Part shown: in pieces, positions 18,294-48,620 of the stretch
How positions within the stretch are numbered: position 1 is the first letter of the stretch
Layout: every line of letters starts with the position of its first letter
NCBI GenBank assembly: GCA_003605175.1
Contig: QWDA01000007.1
Location: forward strand, 1 to 64,000
Length of the DNA: 64,000 nucleotides
Direction: 5' to 3'
From: Paracoccaceae bacterium
Lineage (GTDB): Bacteria; Pseudomonadota; Alphaproteobacteria; Rhodobacterales; Rhodobacteraceae
Translations under genes and position numbers: made by a program
Notes under the pieces: model-generated
What the model was told of the DNA's origin: nothing
What the model saw: only the letters and a program-made list of their open reading frames with translations
Databases searched by the model: none

Positions 18294-19409
18294 ACGCGCG
18301 CCCCGCGTCGCCTGCCACTCGATCGCCTCGGCCCGTAGCGCCGCGTCGTCGATGTCGATGCCGAACGCCGCGCAATAGCCGCGGATCATTGCCAGGTACT
18401 CGTCCTGGCTGCACGGGTGGAACCCGAGCCAGAGCCCGAACCGGTCCGAAAGCGAGACCTTCTCCTCGGTCGCCTCCGACGGCGAAATCGCCGTGGAACG
18501 CTCGTTCTCGATCATGTCGCGCGGCATCAGGTGCCGCCGGTTCGAGGTGGCATAGAGCACCACGTTCTCCGGCCGCCCCTCGACGCCGCCGTCCAGCACC
18601 GCCTTGAGCGACTTGTAATGCTCGTCGTCATGGCTGAACGACAGGTCGTCACAGAACAGCAGGAACCGCTCCGACGCGCCCCGGAGATAGGACAGAAGCC
18701 GCCCGATCGACGGCAGGTCCTCGCGCTGCACCTCGACGATCTTCAGCGCATGGCCCTCGGCCACCACTTCCGCATGGATCGCCTTCACCAGCGAGGATTT
18801 CCCCATTCCCCGCGCACCCCAGAGCAGCGCGTTGTTGGCCGGCAGCCCCTTCGCGAATTGCCGCGTATTGGCCAGGAGCGTGTCCCGCGACCGGTCGATG
18901 CCCACCAGCAGCGGCAGCGCCACCCGGTTCACCTTGCCCACCGGCTGGATCCGGTCAGGCCGCGTGTGCCAGACAAATGCATCGGCCGCCCCGAATTCCG
19001 GCGCCGCCATCGGCGGCGGCGACATCCGCTCCAGCGCCTCGGCGATCCGGATCACGGCCATAGCGTCGCCATTTTGCTCCGAGGGCAACCCCCGGCCGCG
19101 GGCGGGGGAAAAGCCCCCGCCCGGGGGGGCGGTCGGGGGCTGCCCGGCGGTTCCCACCGGGCGGTCCGTATTCGCCAACCTGTGCCCGAAAAAATCTCCG
19201 TGGAACATCTGGGATGGCTCGACGTTCAGGGCTTCGCAGATGCTACGAAGCGTCTTCTCGTTCAGCGGCCTGGTCCCTTTCTCGAGCTCGCAATAGTAGG
19301 ATTGCGAAATCCCTGCGCGTTCCGCCACCTGATGTTGCGAGAGGCGCCGTTCCTTTCGGACCGCTTTCAATTGAACCCTGGAACCGATGGGTTCCCAGGT
19401 GCTGCTCAT
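18228..19409 (-). CDS. XRE HTH domain joined in frame to DUF815 AAA+ ATPase
   Basis: 393-codon frame. Residues 1-72 are an XRE-type helix-turn-helix (RLSQHQVAERAGISQSYYCELEKGTRPLNEKTL). Residues 73-116 are Gly/Pro-rich and cover a 10-bp hairpin (19099-19123). From M117 (19061; AVIRIAEALERM) on is a normal-length 277-residue DUF815 ATPase with Walker A GARGMGKSS near 200 and Walker B FLLFCDDLSF. The first ATG overlaps the tatC stop (ATGA). Read either as a true fusion or as two genes, the HTH gene having lost its stop, with DUF815 translated from 19061 (CGGAG upstream). DUF815 function is unknown. Confidence 0.72.
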   Translation of the reverse strand: MSSTWEPIGSRVQLKAVRKERRLSQHQVAERAGISQSYYCELEKGTRPLNEKTLRSICEALNVEPSQMFHGDFFGHRLANTDRPVGTAGQPPTAPPGGGFSPARGRGLPSEQNGDAMAVIRIAEALERMSPPPMAAPEFGAADAFVWHTRPDRIQPVGKVNRVALPLLVGIDRSRDTLLANTRQFAKGLPANNALLWGARGMGKSSLVKAIHAEVVAEGHALKIVEVQREDLPSIGRLLSYLRGASERFLLFCDDLSFSHDDEHYKSLKAVLDGGVEGRPENVVLYATSNRRHLMPRDMIENERSTAISPSEATEEKVSLSDRFGLWLGFHPCSQDEYLAMIRGYCAAFGIDIDDAALRAEAIEWQATRGARSGRVAWQYVTDLAGRRGVGLP

Positions 19410-20332
19410 GCCTCGGGCTCCTCCGCCTCGTCGGTATCGCCGTAGAGATCCTCGTCCTCGCCCAGCACGCCCTCGCGCCGCAGCTCCTCCACCCGCTTCT
19501 TCTCGACCCGTTTCACGAGCTGGATCGAGATCTCGTAAAGCCCGTAGACCACGGTGAACAGGATCAGCTGGGTGATCACGTCGGGCGGCGTCACCACCGC
19601 GGCCAGGACCAGGATGCCCACCACCGCGTATTTGCGCATCTCGCCCAGGCCGCGCGCCGAGACCAGCCCCGCCTTGCCCATCAGCGTGAGCAGCACCGGC
19701 AACTGGAAGCACAGCCCGAAGGCGATGATGAATTTCAGCGTGATGTCGAGCGACTCGTTCACCTTGCCGAAGAAGGTGACCCGGATCCCGTCGCTGGTCT
19801 CGGGCACCACCACGCTCGCGCTGTCCGGCAGCCCCGAGCCGTTCATCAGGTTCGCGAAGACCGAGCTGACATCGACGAAGCCCAGGAAGAACCGCATCGC
19901 CAGCGGCGTCACCACGAACTGCGCGAAACTCGCGCCAAGCAGGAACATCACCGGCGAGGCGATCAGGAAGGGCAGGAACGCGTTCTTCTCCGACCGGTAG
20001 AGCCCCGGCGCCACGAAGCGCCACATCTGATGCGCGATCACCGGGAAGGCGAGGCCGAAGCCGAACACCATCGAGATCCGGAACAGCGTGAACAGGTATT
20101 CCTGCGGGCTGGTGTATTGCAGCGTCGGCGACGGGTCGCCCAGGTCGCGCAGGGTGGATTCGATCGGCACCAGCAGGAATTGCAGGATCGGCTCGGCCAC
20201 CGTGAAGGCCAGCACCATCCCCACCACGAAGGCAAGCACCGAGCGGATGATCCGCGTCCGGAGCTCCGCCAGATGCTCGATCAGCGGTGCCGAGCTGTCC
20301 TCGATCGGATCGTTGTCGTCTTCCACGGCCAT
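19406..20332 (-). CDS. tatC: Sec-independent translocase subunit TatC
   Basis: 308 residues. Six-helix inner-membrane receptor for twin-arginine signal peptides. The N-terminal PLIEHLAELRTRIIRS is the classic TatC signature; FVAPGLYRSEKNAFLPFLI and VVTPPDVITQLILFTVVYGLYEISIQLV are later conserved blocks. The C-terminal cytoplasmic tail is extended and acidic (GEDEDLYGDTDEAEEPEA). Starts with ATG directly after the tatB stop; its own stop overlaps the next ORF. Operon tatA-tatB-tatC. Confidence 0.97.
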   Translation of the reverse strand: MAVEDDNDPIEDSSAPLIEHLAELRTRIIRSVLAFVVGMVLAFTVAEPILQFLLVPIESTLRDLGDPSPTLQYTSPQEYLFTLFRISMVFGFGLAFPVIAHQMWRFVAPGLYRSEKNAFLPFLIASPVMFLLGASFAQFVVTPLAMRFFLGFVDVSSVFANLMNGSGLPDSASVVVPETSDGIRVTFFGKVNESLDITLKFIIAFGLCFQLPVLLTLMGKAGLVSARGLGEMRKYAVVGILVLAAVVTPPDVITQLILFTVVYGLYEISIQLVKRVEKKRVEELRREGVLGEDEDLYGDTDEAEEPEA

Positions 20333-20827
20333 CTAGCGGCCCTTCTTCTTCACCGGCCGCGGCGGCAGTTGCGGCCCCGTGCCGAGCGCCGCCCGGCTCC
20401 GCGAGGCCGGACCCCGCACCGGCTCGTGCGGCGGCACCACCTTCTTCGGCGCGGGCGGCGTCCAGGCCGGCTTCGGCGTGGCCGCCTGCCCCGCCTTGAT
20501 CGCCTCGGCCGCATTCTGCGGCACCTTCTTCGCCGGTTTCGCGGCCTTCGCCGGATCCCATTTCTCGAAGCTGTCCGCCGCCTTGTTCAGCGTGTCGAGG
20601 CCGAGCGACTTCGTGCTGGTCGCGGATTTGAGACCGCTCGCGGCCTCCTTCATCCCCGACTCGTCGGCGGCATCGTTCATCGCCTGCTTGAACTCGCGCG
20701 CCATGCCGCGTGCCCGCGCCGTGAAGCGCCCGAGCGTGCGGAACATGTCGGGCAGGTCCTTCGGCCCCACCACGATCAGCGCGACGACACCGATGACCAG
20801 AAGCTCGGTCCAGCCGATATCCAGCAT
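20333..20827 (-). CDS. tatB: Sec-independent translocase subunit TatB
   Basis: 164 residues. A single N-terminal helix, [35 protein letters not shown], with the conserved Glu8 and GPKDLP hinge, then an amphipathic helix ([16 protein letters not shown]) and a long Pro/Lys-rich tail ending KKKGR. TatB forms the signal-recognition complex with TatC. 15 bases after tatA and abutting tatC. Confidence 0.96.
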
Positions 20828-20842
20828 GTCAGCCCCTTCGGA

Positions 20843-21055
20843 TCAGACCTTGGTCTTGTCTTCCTCGGGCGTCACGTCACGGGCGTTCTCGGCGCTGTCC
20901 TCGAGCTCCTTCTGCCCGTCCGACACGCCCTTCTTGAAGGCGGTGATACCCTTGCCGACCTCGCCCATGAGCGACGAGATCTTGCCGCGCCCGAACAGCA
21001 CCAGGACGACGACGGCGATCAGAAGAAGGCCCGGAAGGCCGATATTGTTCAGCAT
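20843..21055 (-). CDS. tatA: Sec-independent translocase subunit TatA
   Basis: 70 residues. One hydrophobic helix ([21 protein letters not shown]), the FGRGKI hinge, then an amphipathic helix ([18 protein letters not shown]) and an acidic tail. TatA assembles the transport pore. A GGGAGACAC sequence precedes the ATG. First gene of tatABC; LolA in this window has an RR motif in its leader and is a possible substrate. Confidence 0.95.
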
Positions 21056-21207
21056 GTGTGTCTCCCAAACGGGCGAAGCGCCCCGGCGCTTCGCGTCGCG
21101 ATGTCATCCGGCGTTCTAGGCCCGCCCCGCGCCGGGCGAAAGGGCCGGCGCGGGCGGAGGCGCGGATCGGGGCGCATTTCGGCCCCCGGCAGGGGGGATG
21201 CGCCACG

Positions 21208-21233
21208 ACAACTGACAGGTTACTGTCAGTTGT
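21208..21233. promoter_or_regulatory. perfect palindromic operator before WYL regulator
   Basis: ACAACTGACAG and CTGTCAGTTGT are exact inverted 11-mers separated by GTTA. The centre lies about 42 bases before the regulator start at 21263, the right place for an autoregulatory site. It is AT-rich compared with its surroundings, which argues against chance. Confidence 0.8.
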
Positions 21234-21262
21234 GAACCGCTCCGCAAGGCCCGCCGAATCAG

Positions 21263-21922
21263 ATGCCCCGCACCGACCGCCTCCAGTCCCTGCTCGCCCG
21301 GCTCCGCGACGGGCGGCTGCACCGCGCCGAGGATCTGGCCCGCGCCTTCGGCGTCTCGAAACGCACGATCTACCGCGATGTCGAAACGCTCCAGGCCTCG
21401 GGCCTGCCGGTCGCGGGCACCAGGGGCGCGGGCTACCGGATGACCGCGCCGGTGGCGCTGCCGCCTCTCGACCTCACGCTCGCCGAGCTTGAAGCCTTGC
21501 ATCTCGGCCTCGCCGTCGTCGCCGAGGCCGCCGATCCGGAGCTGAAAGCCGCCGCCACCCGCCTCGCCGACCGGATCGACGCCGCGCTGCCTGCAGAGAC
21601 CGGCGGCCCCGCGCCCGCCTGGCCCGGCCTCGCCACGCATCCGCTCGCCGCGCCCGGCGGCAGCGGCATCGGCCACCTCCCCGCGCTCCGCGCCGCGATC
21701 CGCACCCGCCAGAAGCTCCGCCTCCGCGACGGCACCGGCGCCGACACGCTCCGCCCACTCGCGCTCGACTATCGCGGCCGGCTCTGGTGGCTCACCGCCT
21801 GGTCCGAGGAGCAGGGTACCTTCCGCACCATCCGCCTCGACCGCGTCACCGCGCTCGACCTCCTGCCCGAGCTTTTCGTCGACGAGCCGGGCAAGAGCCT
21901 CGACGATCTTCACGGCTGCTGA
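21263..21922 (+). CDS. YafY-like HTH/WYL transcriptional regulator
   Basis: 219 residues. N-terminal DeoR-like winged helix (RLQSLLARLRDGRLHRAEDLARAFGVSKRTIYRDVETL, about 5-45) followed by a WYL domain (about 130-205: LRPLALDYRGRLWWLTAWSEE, then FRTIRLDRV). WYL domains sense nucleic-acid or small-molecule ligands. Starts with ATG at 21263. The palindrome at 21208-21233 is its likely own operator. Divergent from tatABC, with no obvious partner gene downstream. Regulated genes are unknown. Confidence 0.88.
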   Translation: MPRTDRLQSLLARLRDGRLHRAEDLARAFGVSKRTIYRDVETLQASGLPVAGTRGAGYRMTAPVALPPLDLTLAELEALHLGLAVVAEAADPELKAAATRLADRIDAALPAETGGPAPAWPGLATHPLAAPGGSGIGHLPALRAAIRTRQKLRLRDGTGADTLRPLALDYRGRLWWLTAWSEEQGTFRTIRLDRVTALDLLPELFVDEPGKSLDDLHGC

Positions 21923-22044
21923 GACCCTCCCCCAACGACACGCCACCCTCCCCCTCGATCCCCCTCCCGGCGGGAGAAGGGAGGGGGGAGAGGGCGGCCC
22001 CGAAAGCGAGGCGTTGCCCTGCCCCGCCCGAAATGCGCCGAAGG

Positions 22045-22184
22045 CGCCGGGCGAGCGCCTGCCCGCCCCGCCGGGCTGGCGCTCTGGGGACGTTCCGCGC
22101 AGAACGGTTGTACGGCGGGCTGGCGAAACAAAGCGCGGCGCACAACCCTCGCGGCGCCATCCCAAGGGCTGGCGCTCGCCCGGC
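22045..22184. repeat. dispersed element with inverted GCCGGGCGAGCGCC arms
   Basis: The 330-base gap 21923-22252 holds no convincing gene. It contains GCCGGGCGAGCGCC at 22046-22059 and its complement GGCGCTCGCCCGGC at 22171-22184, with a CCCGCCCG block just left of the first arm. Further left, a CCCTCCCCCTCGATCCCCCTC stretch (about 21948) recurs in inverse at about 27932-27957. Confidence 0.6.
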
Positions 22185-22252
22185 TTGCGCTTCAGGGCAT
22201 CGCAAGGTGAACTCAACGGAAACCGAGCGTTCCCGCCGGAACGCATCCTGCT

Positions 22253-22957
22253 CTAGCCGAGCCCCATCTGCGCGTGAATCTGCTTCCGGTCCGTCTCCGA
22301 CAGCCCCAGGGCCGCCGCCAGCCCGTCGAGATAGGAGACCTCCGATTGCGTATCCACCCGGATCGCCATCGCCGACATCGTGTAGACCTGCGCCTTGGCC
22401 TGCTGCCCGGTCTCCATGGCGAGCCCGTTCACGTCGATCGGCTTCGCCAGCTCAGCCTCGACAAAGGCCTTCTCCTCGGCATCCAGATCGCCCAGATAGC
22501 CCAGGATCCGCCCCTTCTCGTCCGCGTCGATCTCGCCGTCGGCCTTCGCCGCCTGGATCATCGCGCGGATCATCAGCTTGGCATTCTCCTCCATCGCGCC
22601 GGTGGCCACCTTCTTGCCGGTCAGCGTGTCGATCATCTGCCCCGCCTGCTCGGTCCCGGTCGCCGCCGCGCCGCCCAGGGCCGCCATCAGCCCGCCCAGC
22701 CCCGCCATCGCGCTCTCGCTCGCCTGGCCGGCCGCGCCCGTCCACTGCGACGCCATCTCGGAAAAGCCCTTGGCGCCGCCCGGAACGCCCATCTTCTCCA
22801 TCATTTCGCCCATCTGCGCCTGCATGTTGGCGAGCGCCGGGTTGTCGGCCATCGCCTTCTGCACCCCGGCCATGCCGCCCATCTTCCTGAACTGATCGTA
22901 GCCCTTCGCCGCCGCGAAACCGGCAGCCAGCGTGGCCAAAGTGCGCACGAAACTCAT
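22253..22957 (-). CDS. DUF533 / TerB-like tellurite-resistance-type protein
   Basis: 234 residues. N-terminal hydrophobic segment SFVRTLATLAAGFAAAKG and a Gly/Ala/Met-rich middle. A C-terminal helical domain starts MIRAMIQAAKADGEIDADEKGRIL (about 118-140), with acidic metal-binding-like residues as in YebE/TerB proteins, and runs to IHAQMGLG. The start is fixed by GAGGAGGAA, 7 bases before the ATG. It is downstream of rnpB on the same strand. DUF533 function is unclear; likely membrane-associated. Confidence 0.85.
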   Translation of the reverse strand: MSFVRTLATLAAGFAAAKGYDQFRKMGGMAGVQKAMADNPALANMQAQMGEMMEKMGVPGGAKGFSEMASQWTGAAGQASESAMAGLGGLMAALGGAAATGTEQAGQMIDTLTGKKVATGAMEENAKLMIRAMIQAAKADGEIDADEKGRILGYLGDLDAEEKAFVEAELAKPIDVNGLAMETGQQAKAQVYTMSAMAIRVDTQSEVSYLDGLAAALGLSETDRKQIHAQMGLG

Positions 22958-23185
22958 TGCGAAATTCCTCCTCGAATCCGGAGCCGGCCGGCCCCCCGCG
23001 GGAACTATAACAAGGATGCAACGGAGATGTCCCGGAGGATGCGGGCCCCGCAATCGCCGGGCGCGGCCACCGGAGCATGCGCCTCGCCGGCCCGCCGAAC
23101 GGAGCGCTCTCGGGAAGAACCGACAGACCGGGAAACCGAGGCCCATCGGGCGCCTCACCGACCACCCGAAAGGATTTGCGGCCCA

Positions 23186-23556
23186 AATGCGCGGAGGGCC
23201 TGTAAGCCGGATTCTGTCAGGGGCCGAAACCCCCGGATGACCATTCCTCTCGGCCCCGGATCGCTCCGGGGCTCCAGCTGCCGACCCGGGATCCGGGCCG
23301 AAGCAGCCCATGCGGATCCCCTATTTGGCATTGCTCCCGGTGGGGCTTGCCGTGCCGGTCCGGTTGCCCGTCCCGCGGTGGGCTCTTACCCCACCGTTTC
23401 ACCCTTGCCGCTCGAAAGCGGCGGTCTGTTCTCTGTGGCGCTTTCCCTCGGGTTGCCCCGGCCGGGCGTTACCCGGCACCGTCGCTTCGTGGAGTCCGGA
23501 CTTTCCTCGTGCCCCGGAGATGATCCGGGGCCCGCGGCCATCCGGCCCTCCGCGCG
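23186..23556 (-). ncRNA. rnpB: RNase P RNA, bacterial type A
   Basis: Ribozyme that removes tRNA 5' leaders. Reading the minus strand: P1 5' strand GCGCGGAGGGCC (23544-23555) pairs with GGCCCTCCGCGC (23189-23200). Universally conserved cores are present: GAGGAAAGTCCGGACTCC near 23500, GGTAACGCC, AGAGAACAGACCGCC, GGGTAAGAG, GGCAAGCCCCACC, CAAATAGGGG, and the 3' ACAGAATCCGGCTTA. Ends are placed by P1 and are approximate to a few bases. Its 5' end lies about 10 bases after the upstream amidase stop, so its promoter must be inside that gene. Confidence 0.97.
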
Positions 23557-23565
23557 AGACCGCAG

Positions 23566-24255
23566 TTAGGCGCTCGGCCCCGTCCGGTCAACGGGAAACC
23601 GCCGCGCCAGCTCCGCGGCCAGACCGGCATCCGTGGCATCGGCGGGCCCGTCTGCCCCGGGGCGGAACCGCGCGCGGAACGCCGCAAGCACCGCCTCCGC
23701 ACCGGCCTCGCACGGATAACCGAGGCGCCCGGCCATCGAGAGAAACGCCGCCGGGTCCTCGCGTTCCCCGCCCTCCGGCCAGACCGCGCGCCCGCCCAGC
23801 GCCAGCCGCCGCCAGTCGAACCGCACCCCCGGATCCGCCTTCCGCGAGGGCGCCATGTCCTGATGCCCGATCACGCCCGCCGGCCCGGTCCCCCAACGCC
23901 CCATGATCCCGTCGAGCAAGCCCTCCAGGGCCACCATCTGCGCCTCGGGAAAGGGCGAGACCCCGTCATTGTCGAGCTCGATCCCGATCGAGGCCGAGTT
24001 CACATCGGTACAACCGCCCCAGCACCCGGCCCCGGCATGCCAGGCCCGCATTTCCTCCGCCACCAGCGAACAGACGCTGCCATCCGCCCCCACCAGCCAA
24101 TGGCACGAAACCTCCGCCGCCGGATCGCGAAGCCGCGCCAGCGCCGCGCCCATATCCGCCATCGCCGTGTAATGCAGCACGATCAGATGCGGCCGCGCCC
24201 CGCCCCGCCGCTCGCCGAAATTCGGCGACGGATGGCTGAGCGCCGCGCTCACCAC
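23566..24255 (-). CDS. N-acetylmuramoyl-L-alanine amidase, AmpD-like
   Basis: 229 residues, cytoplasmic (no signal peptide). Zinc amidase that removes the stem peptide from anhydro-muropeptides. Zn ligands are expected at His28 (IVLHYTAM), the His of VIGHQDMAPSRKADPG, and the Asp of KADPG. WLVGADGSVCSLV and WHAG also fit AmpD (amidase_2). The start is ambiguous: GTG codons at 24255 and 24252. A 7-bp hairpin (24273-24289) lies upstream. The gene ends about 10 bases before rnpB. Confidence 0.9.
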   Translation of the reverse strand: MVSAALSHPSPNFGERRGGARPHLIVLHYTAMADMGAALARLRDPAAEVSCHWLVGADGSVCSLVAEEMRAWHAGAGCWGGCTDVNSASIGIELDNDGVSPFPEAQMVALEGLLDGIMGRWGTGPAGVIGHQDMAPSRKADPGVRFDWRRLALGGRAVWPEGGEREDPAAFLSMAGRLGYPCEAGAEAVLAAFRARFRPGADGPADATDAGLAAELARRFPVDRTGPSA

Positions 24256-33808: not shown

Positions 33809-33907
33809 CCCCGCCCGGAACGAGGCCCGCACAATGCCCCCGCCCGCATAGCGGCGAAGCCGCCGGGCGAGCGCCTGCCCGTCCCCACGGGCAGGCGCTC
33901 GCCCGGC
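33809..33907. repeat. dispersed element; perfect 20-bp hairpin at 33862-33907
   Basis: CCCGCCCGGAACGAGGCCCG on the left, then an exact inverted repeat: a 20-base arm 33862-33881 beginning GCCGGGCGAGCGCC, a TCCCCA loop, and the exact complement 33888-33907. No mismatch in the stem. Lies 62 bases after the permease stop, so it may also stop transcription. Confidence 0.8.
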
Positions 33908-41291: not shown

Positions 41292-41936
41292 TCAGAATGG
41301 CACCTTGGCCGAAAAGGTCATGCCCACGCCGCCGTCCGGATGCCGGATTCTCAGCGACTCGGCATGCAGCATCAGCCGCGGATGCGCCAGCGCCGCGCCC
41401 ACCGCATAGAACGGATCGCCGAGGATCGGGTGGCCGATCTCGCGCATATGGACACGGAGCTGGTGCGACCGGCCGGTTTGCGGGAACAGCCGCACCCGCG
41501 TCTCGCCGCCACCCTTCCGCACCACGCGCCATTCGGTCAGCGCCGGCTTGCCGGTCTCGTGGCACACCTTCTGCAGGGGCCGGTTCGGCCAGTCGACGAT
41601 CAGCGGCAGTTCGACGCTCCCGGTCTTCTCGGCGATCTCGCCAGCGACCCGCGCGACATAGACCTTGCGCACGTGCCGCCGCTCGAATTGCAGGCCCAGG
41701 TGCCGCTGCGCATGGGCGGTCAGCGCGAAGATCATCACCCCCGAAGTATCCCGGTCGAGCCGGTGAACGAGCAGCGCCTCGGGAAAGGCCGCCTGCGCGC
41801 GCGACAGCAGGCAATCGGCCAGGTGCTCGCCCTTGCCCGGCACCGAGAGGAGCCCGGTCGGCTTGTTCAGCACCAGGATCTCGTGGTCGGCATGCAGCAC
41901 GTCGAGAGGCGTGTCGGGCGGATCGTAATCGGTCAC
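41292..41936 (-). CDS. RluA-family pseudouridine synthase
   Basis: 214 residues. VLNKPTGLLSVPG, catalytic Asp61 in LVHRLDRDTSGVMIFA, and GRSHQLRVHMREIGHPILGDPFYA show an RluA-type enzyme that modifies rRNA or tRNA. No S4 domain, so RluA-like rather than RluC/D-like. GTG start overlaps the GFA gene (GTGA). RNA target unknown. Confidence 0.93.
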   Translation of the reverse strand: MTDYDPPDTPLDVLHADHEILVLNKPTGLLSVPGKGEHLADCLLSRAQAAFPEALLVHRLDRDTSGVMIFALTAHAQRHLGLQFERRHVRKVYVARVAGEIAEKTGSVELPLIVDWPNRPLQKVCHETGKPALTEWRVVRKGGGETRVRLFPQTGRSHQLRVHMREIGHPILGDPFYAVGAALAHPRLMLHAESLRIRHPDGGVGMTFSAKVPF

Positions 41937-48427: not shown

Positions 48428-48620
48428 GCCGGGCGAGCGCCTGCACGTGGGAAGGCGCCGCAACGGTTGAGCGGCGCGGTTTATGGTGCCAGTGCCTCCG
48501 GCCCCGAAGGTCCGCGCCAACGGCATAACAGCGCCAGCCCGGTCGTGCCGGAGGCACGCCTCTGGCGTGACGCGGACAGGCGCTCGCCCGGCGGCCCTCC
48601 GGGCCTTGTCCCGGGCGGGA
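48428..48620. repeat. dispersed element with inverted arms
   Basis: GCCGGGCGAGCGCCTGC at 48428-48444 and its complement CAGGCGCTCGCCCGGCGGC at 48577-48595, followed by CCTTGTCCCGGGCGGGA, the inverse of the CCCGCCCGGAACAAGG block. Fills the 270-base gap between the transglycosylase and lolA. Confidence 0.7.

Follow-up and report, generated by a model that had tools for sequence, protein, structure and literature searches.

The gene for a short WYL-domain regulator is preceded by a perfect inverted repeat, and the locus raises the question of whether this repeat is the regulator's operator and, if so, which promoter it controls and with which sign. The following features surround it in the window, by which we mean the whole 64-kb stretch of DNA analysed:

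19406–20332, minus strand: tatC (Pfam TatC)
20333–20827, minus strand: tatB (Pfam TatA_B_E; assigned as B by position and length)
20843–21055, minus strand: tatA, divergent neighbour of the regulator (Pfam TatA_B_E; synteny)
21113–21118, minus strand: candidate tatA −10, TAGAAC, about 100 bp from the operator centre (from sequence and conservation profile)
21208–21233, no strand: perfect inverted repeat, the putative operator with both outer arms, ACAACTGACAG-GTTA-CTGTCAGTTGT (11-base arms, 4-base loop)
21213–21228, no strand: operator core TGACA-N6-TGTCA, the conserved part, with half-sites 21213–21217 and 21224–21228
21263–21922, plus strand: regulator of 219 aa with winged HTH (HTH_11) and WYL domains, the proposed operator-binding protein (Pfam, AlphaFold2, Foldseek)

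The inverted repeat and the adjacent regulator

Both arms of the repeat are exact and enclose a GTTA loop as read from the sequence, in agreement with the initial annotation, which had described a perfect 11-bp inverted repeat about 30 bases before the start codon; the measured distance to the regulator's ATG at 21263 is 29 bases. The repeat lies upstream of the regulator's own transcription unit. The window contains four perfect inverted repeats with arms of at least 11 bases and loops of 3–8 bases, and 30 first-order Markov simulations gave a chance expectation of 0.57 per window on average, or 0.03 for loops of exactly four bases. By itself, the length of the repeat is mildly unusual and suggestive at most. 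That the repeat is not a product of chance follows from its conservation upstream of homologues rather than from its arm length, and this conservation covers TGACA-N6-TGTCA and preferred outer bases, not the whole 11-base palindrome.

The regulator carries an N-terminal winged helix (HTH_11, E = 6.9e-14, 51.9 bits against a cut-off of 25) and a WYL domain (E = 1.8e-7, 31.5 bits against a cut-off of 21.8) as assessed with Pfam, and its structural model matches WYL proteins of the PDB in Foldseek. We take it to belong to the HTH-WYL transcription regulators, a class often named YafY/DeoR-like. The protein lacks the WCX domain, the C-terminal extension of most but not all HTH-WYL members, and ends at residue 219, which leaves no room for it. 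Its closest solved relatives are PafBC and DriD by sequence profile and PafBC, DriD, CapW and BrxR by fold (Foldseek); the profile alignment with the PafBC and DriD chains stops at about residue 202–206, and those chains run about 100 residues further. The AlphaFold2 model has a mean pLDDT of 86 and a pTM of 0.55, with a low-confidence linker and low TM-scores against whole chains. In the HTH recognition region, R34, T35, Y37, R38, and D39 are nearly constant among homologues, which fits a constant operator core. Arg191 is conserved as well.

Conservation and spread of the putative operator core

Upstream regions of 142 homologues were compared. The own genome, its genus, and the family scan supplied 131 of them, and named relatives, including Ruegeria, Tritonibacter, and Leisingera, the other 11. 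The set was split into 103 window-like proteins and 39 others, which form a second subfamily. In an unbiased ranking of dyads (1024 five-base arms × 13 spacers of 0–12 bases) within the last 700 bp upstream, TGACA-N6-TGTCA came first among the window-like homologues (65/103) and also in the second subfamily (32/39), there sharing first place with CTGAC-N8-GTCAG, which is this site shifted by one base. Over the full 1.2–1.5 kb upstream, the core was present in 67 of the 103 window-like regions and 32 of the 39 others, with 0 and 0 for the reversed-pattern control.

The divergent tatA adjoins the regulator in 100 of 103 window-like loci. The initial annotation had named missing conservation upstream of orthologues as the finding that would speak against an operator; the opposite was found. 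Between tatA and the regulator, 67 of the 100 tatA-linked orthologues have the exact core and 96 have it with at most one mismatch, and control arms composed of the same letters (n = 120) gave a median of 0 at these loci. The next-best control arm, TGTCA, is one base from TGACA and gave 2 exact matches and 22 with at most one mismatch. The core is absent within one mismatch from four of the 100 tatA-linked orthologues, and it is absent upstream of all three window-like homologues without adjoining tatA (3/103). Although about 0.6 perfect repeats of such size are expected per 64 kb in the Markov simulation, the presence of the core, exact or with one mismatch, in 96 of the 100 syntenic orthologues, against almost none for the controls, refutes a chance palindrome, to which we give virtually no credence.

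A genome-wide search blind to genes recovered the extended pattern CTGACA-N6-TGTCAG in 86 of 150 family genomes, compared with 7 of 150 for the reversed control. At 30 site loci chosen regardless of genes, a WYL homologue lay beside the site in 23, and no WYL match was found within the stretch examined at the other seven. The outer bases vary by subfamily: AAC/GTT prevails in the window-like group, and the second subfamily has TCC/GGA or TGC/GCA. In the window-like group, a further site recurs at a distance of 18 bp (16 cases over 69 cores at no more than two mismatches, a count that pools upstream and downstream shifts and enters tandem exact pairs twice). Tandem operators 18 bp apart with two exact cores each occur at loci L049, L115, and L211. 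The 18-bp tandem arrangement hints at two dimers that might sit side by side.

The core was present at 26 of 30 loci of the class scan, and at 23 of 26 after exclusion of the four loci of the own family, that is, in other alphaproteobacterial families. In other classes of the phylum it was found at 14 of 24 loci (the exact core is lacking in 10), and class or family loci first met in the phylum scan had it in 19 of 22 cases. Among 36 actinobacterial loci, the exact core occurred once, upstream of a close homologue, and 35 lack it; the actinobacterial homologues (L286–L321) favour CGGAC-N7-GTCCG upstream (6/36), which has a DriD-like spacing. The predicted operator accompanies the regulator through differing neighbours, at tatA-linked and VOC-linked loci and in other families and classes.

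Further copies had been expected to reveal the regulon, and the genome was searched with TGACA-N6-TGTCA. Its 4.09 Mb hold three exact copies and none of the reversed pattern; about 0.8 copies per genome are expected by chance from the base composition of the window. Besides the copy in the window, one is on contig C30, where the perfect palindrome around it measures 13 bp. It immediately precedes a gene of the VOC superfamily, after which comes the gene of a WYL paralogue (36% identity to the 219-aa regulator over the full length); both WYL proteins of the subfamily in this genome have the exact core upstream. The predicted regulon is tiny and would comprise two conserved units, the regulator itself and the VOC-WYL operon. 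The remaining exact copy is located about 46 bp before a PPK2 gene (locus L001; Pfam). The core was absent in 17 PPK2 homologues with 73–80% identity, and among all 30 PPK2 loci examined it was seen only at this one and at one other, at −702. The site being unconserved and about 0.8 chance copies being expected, PPK2 was rejected as a regulon member and its copy treated as chance. A third HTH-WYL-like regulator of the genome (L007; C33:159176–159790, minus strand; 31% identity) lacks TGACA-N6-TGTCA and has a different small palindrome upstream, GGTGCCA-N5-TGGCACC.

Neighbouring genes and promoter geometry

In relatives, the operon that begins with the site contains the gene for a small ABM-like or VOC (glyoxalase/bleomycin-resistance superfamily) enzyme and then the regulator gene; in the window, no enzyme gene lies beside the regulator. 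In 26 of the 100 tatA-linked loci, tatA and the regulator are separated by an ABM-like gene, whose product resembles ABM only weakly (Pfam ABM matches 10 of the 26 proteins scanned at E 0.05, the best at 0.00036). In the second subfamily and the class and phylum loci, the position is mostly taken by a VOC gene; Pfam Glyoxalase matched 41 of the 46 proteins scanned. Of the 92 intervening frames picked, 72 were aligned for Pfam (26 + 46), the rest being wrong frames, near-copies, and a few left out. No ABM-like gene was detected elsewhere in the genome at E 0.01 in a search run without a positive control. In the regulator tree, in which many forks are weak, the 26 ABM rows are scattered over the two halves and intermingled with rows that lack ABM; the window regulator falls in a 46-row group without ABM. 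Outside the family, too, ABM-like genes occupy this position (L195, L198, L199, L201, and L208). Because of this scatter and of these outside occurrences, repeated loss is the favoured and simplest reading of the missing enzyme gene, the weakly resolved tree notwithstanding.

A TA or CA step follows 28 bases after the first core base in 24 of 25 ABM operons and 17 of 24 VOC-type operons, and likewise at 28 of the 38 distal loci from class and phylum; all eight direct loci of the second subfamily have TA at 27. Read as −12/−11 of an (extended) −10, this step would let the core span about −40 to −25 and hence lie over the −35, and the bases in the −35 place of the enzyme operons are those of the operator's own spacer. 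In the direct type to which the window belongs, the 28-base geometry is kept in only 5 of 42 loci. The operator centre is at most 31 bp from the start codon in 11 of these 42 direct orthologues, and at L084, L116, and L126 the right operator arm overlaps a Shine-Dalgarno-like GGAG with the start codon close by. With the operator this close to the start codon, the promoter must be upstream of or inside it. A consensus scan returned no sigma-70-like site, and the promoter of the window regulator was not recognised.

Two further elements of the window were noted. An RNase P RNA of bacterial class A (23187–23553, minus strand; Rfam RF00010, 300 bits) lies upstream of a DUF533 gene, which is also on the minus strand. 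The GC-rich repeat GGGCGAGCGCCTGCCCG is dispersed over the window, at 22049–22065, 22165–22181, 33862–33907, 41816–41832, 48431–48447, and 48573–48589 (seven matches at no more than two mismatches in the window compared with 0.27 expected); at 33862–33907 it makes a perfect 21-bp inverted repeat. It resembles REP-type elements.

Proposed mechanism and alternative readings

The earlier proposal of an autoregulatory operator is borne out by the conservation upstream of orthologues, and we consider it very probable as a prediction from sequence. We read 21208–21233 as the operator of the WYL regulator encoded at 21263–21922, which would bind as a dimer and most likely repress its own promoter (probability about 0.82). 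A regulator homodimer would set one winged helix-turn-helix on each half-site, TGACA and TGTCA, which are 11 bp or about one helical turn apart, and might make further contacts to the outer AAC/GTT bases. Once bound, it would control the promoter that transcribes the regulator itself, probably by negative autoregulation, and binding of a signal to the WYL domain would lift or alter the repression. As the ABM-like gene is absent here, the site would control the regulator alone, the only other conserved copy heading the operon of the VOC gene and the WYL paralogue. The data show the site, how it is conserved, its link with this regulator family, and its low copy number; from these we infer the dimeric binding, the sign of regulation, the signal, and the loss of the ABM-like gene.

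Four described WYL systems can be compared with this one. DriD of Caulobacter crescentus is a WYL activator with the site ATACGAC(X)7GTCGTAT (PMC12340889). It resembles the present system as an HTH and WYL protein with GAC/GTC half-sites (GACAG...CTGTC in a DriD test oligo) and a site over the −35 (PMC12340889), and the DriD-DNA complex matches the regulator model in Foldseek with E = 9e-9. However, the GAC-to-GTC spacer is 7 in DriD (PMC12340889) and 8 here, the outer bases are unlike, the DriD targets described are DNA-damage genes, and the solved DriD chains have 331–347 aa compared with 219 aa. SiwR of Mycobacterium smegmatis is likewise a WYL regulator; its gene has genes for small putative enzymes as neighbours, which in some genomes are glyoxalase-like, and it activates via a palindrome in the promoter of its neighbour, beside putative metalloenzymes. 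Its palindrome, in contrast, is imperfect, 19 bp long, and contains a GGA triplet, and it regulates DinB-like genes (PMC10693628). For DriD and SiwR, short ssDNA has been tested as a ligand of the WYL domain. PafBC of mycobacteria is among the closest solved relatives by profile (6sj9, 7p5x) and by fold (9fnd), and the half-site TGTCAG is common to the first part of its site, tTGTCRgtg - 8 nt - TannnT (PMC5656591). It differs in being a heterodimer or fused protein with WCX domains and a non-palindromic site that activates DNA-damage genes (PMC6789036), whereas the site here is palindromic and, by eye, has no TannnT at the right distance after the right half-site. BrxR, another WYL regulator, represses through an 11-bp inverted repeat upstream of the gene that encodes it; this repeat has a 5-bp spacer and imperfect arms, BrxR controls phage-defence islands (PMC9122601), and in the profile search the WYL stretch alone aligns with the regulator.

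The sign of regulation is the point on which a competing reading has most to offer. With the same operator and regulator, the dimer could sit on the −35 and recruit or reprogram RNA polymerase once the WYL signal is loaded, and the fixed distance from operator to −10 and the coverage of the −35 in enzyme operons fit activation at least as well as repression. DriD sites overlap the −35 in the same way at one distance to the −10 (PMC12340889), and SiwR activates from a palindrome between −35 and −10 (PMC10693628). However, only 5 of 42 loci in the group of the window have this geometry, 11 of 42 sites are too near the start codon, some of them overlapping GGAG, and BrxR with its 11-bp repeat is a repressor (PMC9122601). 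The near-start positions support repression, and the mixed geometry as a whole favours it for the type to which the window belongs; DriD-like activation is possible, if clearly the less probable sign, and would be a serious rival chiefly in enzyme operons.

The site might instead serve tatABC, the regulator and its operator controlling the divergent twin-arginine translocon and being held next to tatA for that purpose. The adjacency in 100 of 103 window-like loci, a distance of 113–183 bp between the tatA start and the operator centre at each of the 67 loci with the exact core, and the retention of the regulator in many genera that have no ABM gene next to it are consistent with such a role. 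We consider it unlikely, however, as the core also accompanies VOC operons and, in further families and classes, regulators of other subfamilies. The likely −35 and −10 of tatA are, moreover, about 80–100 bp off the operator (a T-rich, mildly conserved −35-like stretch lies 86–88 bases off its edge), far from the normal position of a repressor or class II activator. A broader scenario, which we offer as speculation with low odds, is that short WYL regulators of Pseudomonadota may form a large unstudied group with TGACA-N6-TGTCA as shared operator, acting DriD-like from the −35 of one-enzyme (VOC or ABM-like) operons; in the lineage of the window the enzyme would have been lost, and the regulator, which with its operator stays locked to tatABC, would have been co-opted to adjust Tat export in response to a nucleic-acid or small-molecule signal at the WYL domain. 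Finally, the repeat could function at the RNA level, in termination, attenuation, or a structured leader, and the strand does fold better than shuffles (z = −3.75). However, the interval 21030–21300 has no terminator-like site, that is, no hairpin followed by a T-run, and the only Rfam match over 20800–24000 is the RNase P RNA, with none at the repeat. In relatives the outer arms often fail to pair, as when a left TCC faces a right GTT, and in 31 of the 69 window-like cores perfect pairing stops after 5–6 pairs; what is conserved is therefore not base pairing. A terminator or RNA element was accordingly rejected and is very improbable.

Predicted negative autoregulation through a WYL-bound operator is a known kind of system. 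Neither the operator with its spread nor a site of a short WYL regulator beside VOC or ABM genes was found in the open literature searched; in a text search of this literature, spellings of the present motif gave no match, and the PafBC motif string did. GAC/GTC half-sites with a spacer of 7 or 8 suggest a shared recognition rule that would link DriD, PafBC-like, and short WYL regulators. Few of the very common WYL regulators have a known site, and here one core spans classes of a phylum. Because the core is tied to the regulator gene, the regulons of this subgroup would be predictable by plain pattern search, and the sign of regulation is directly testable.
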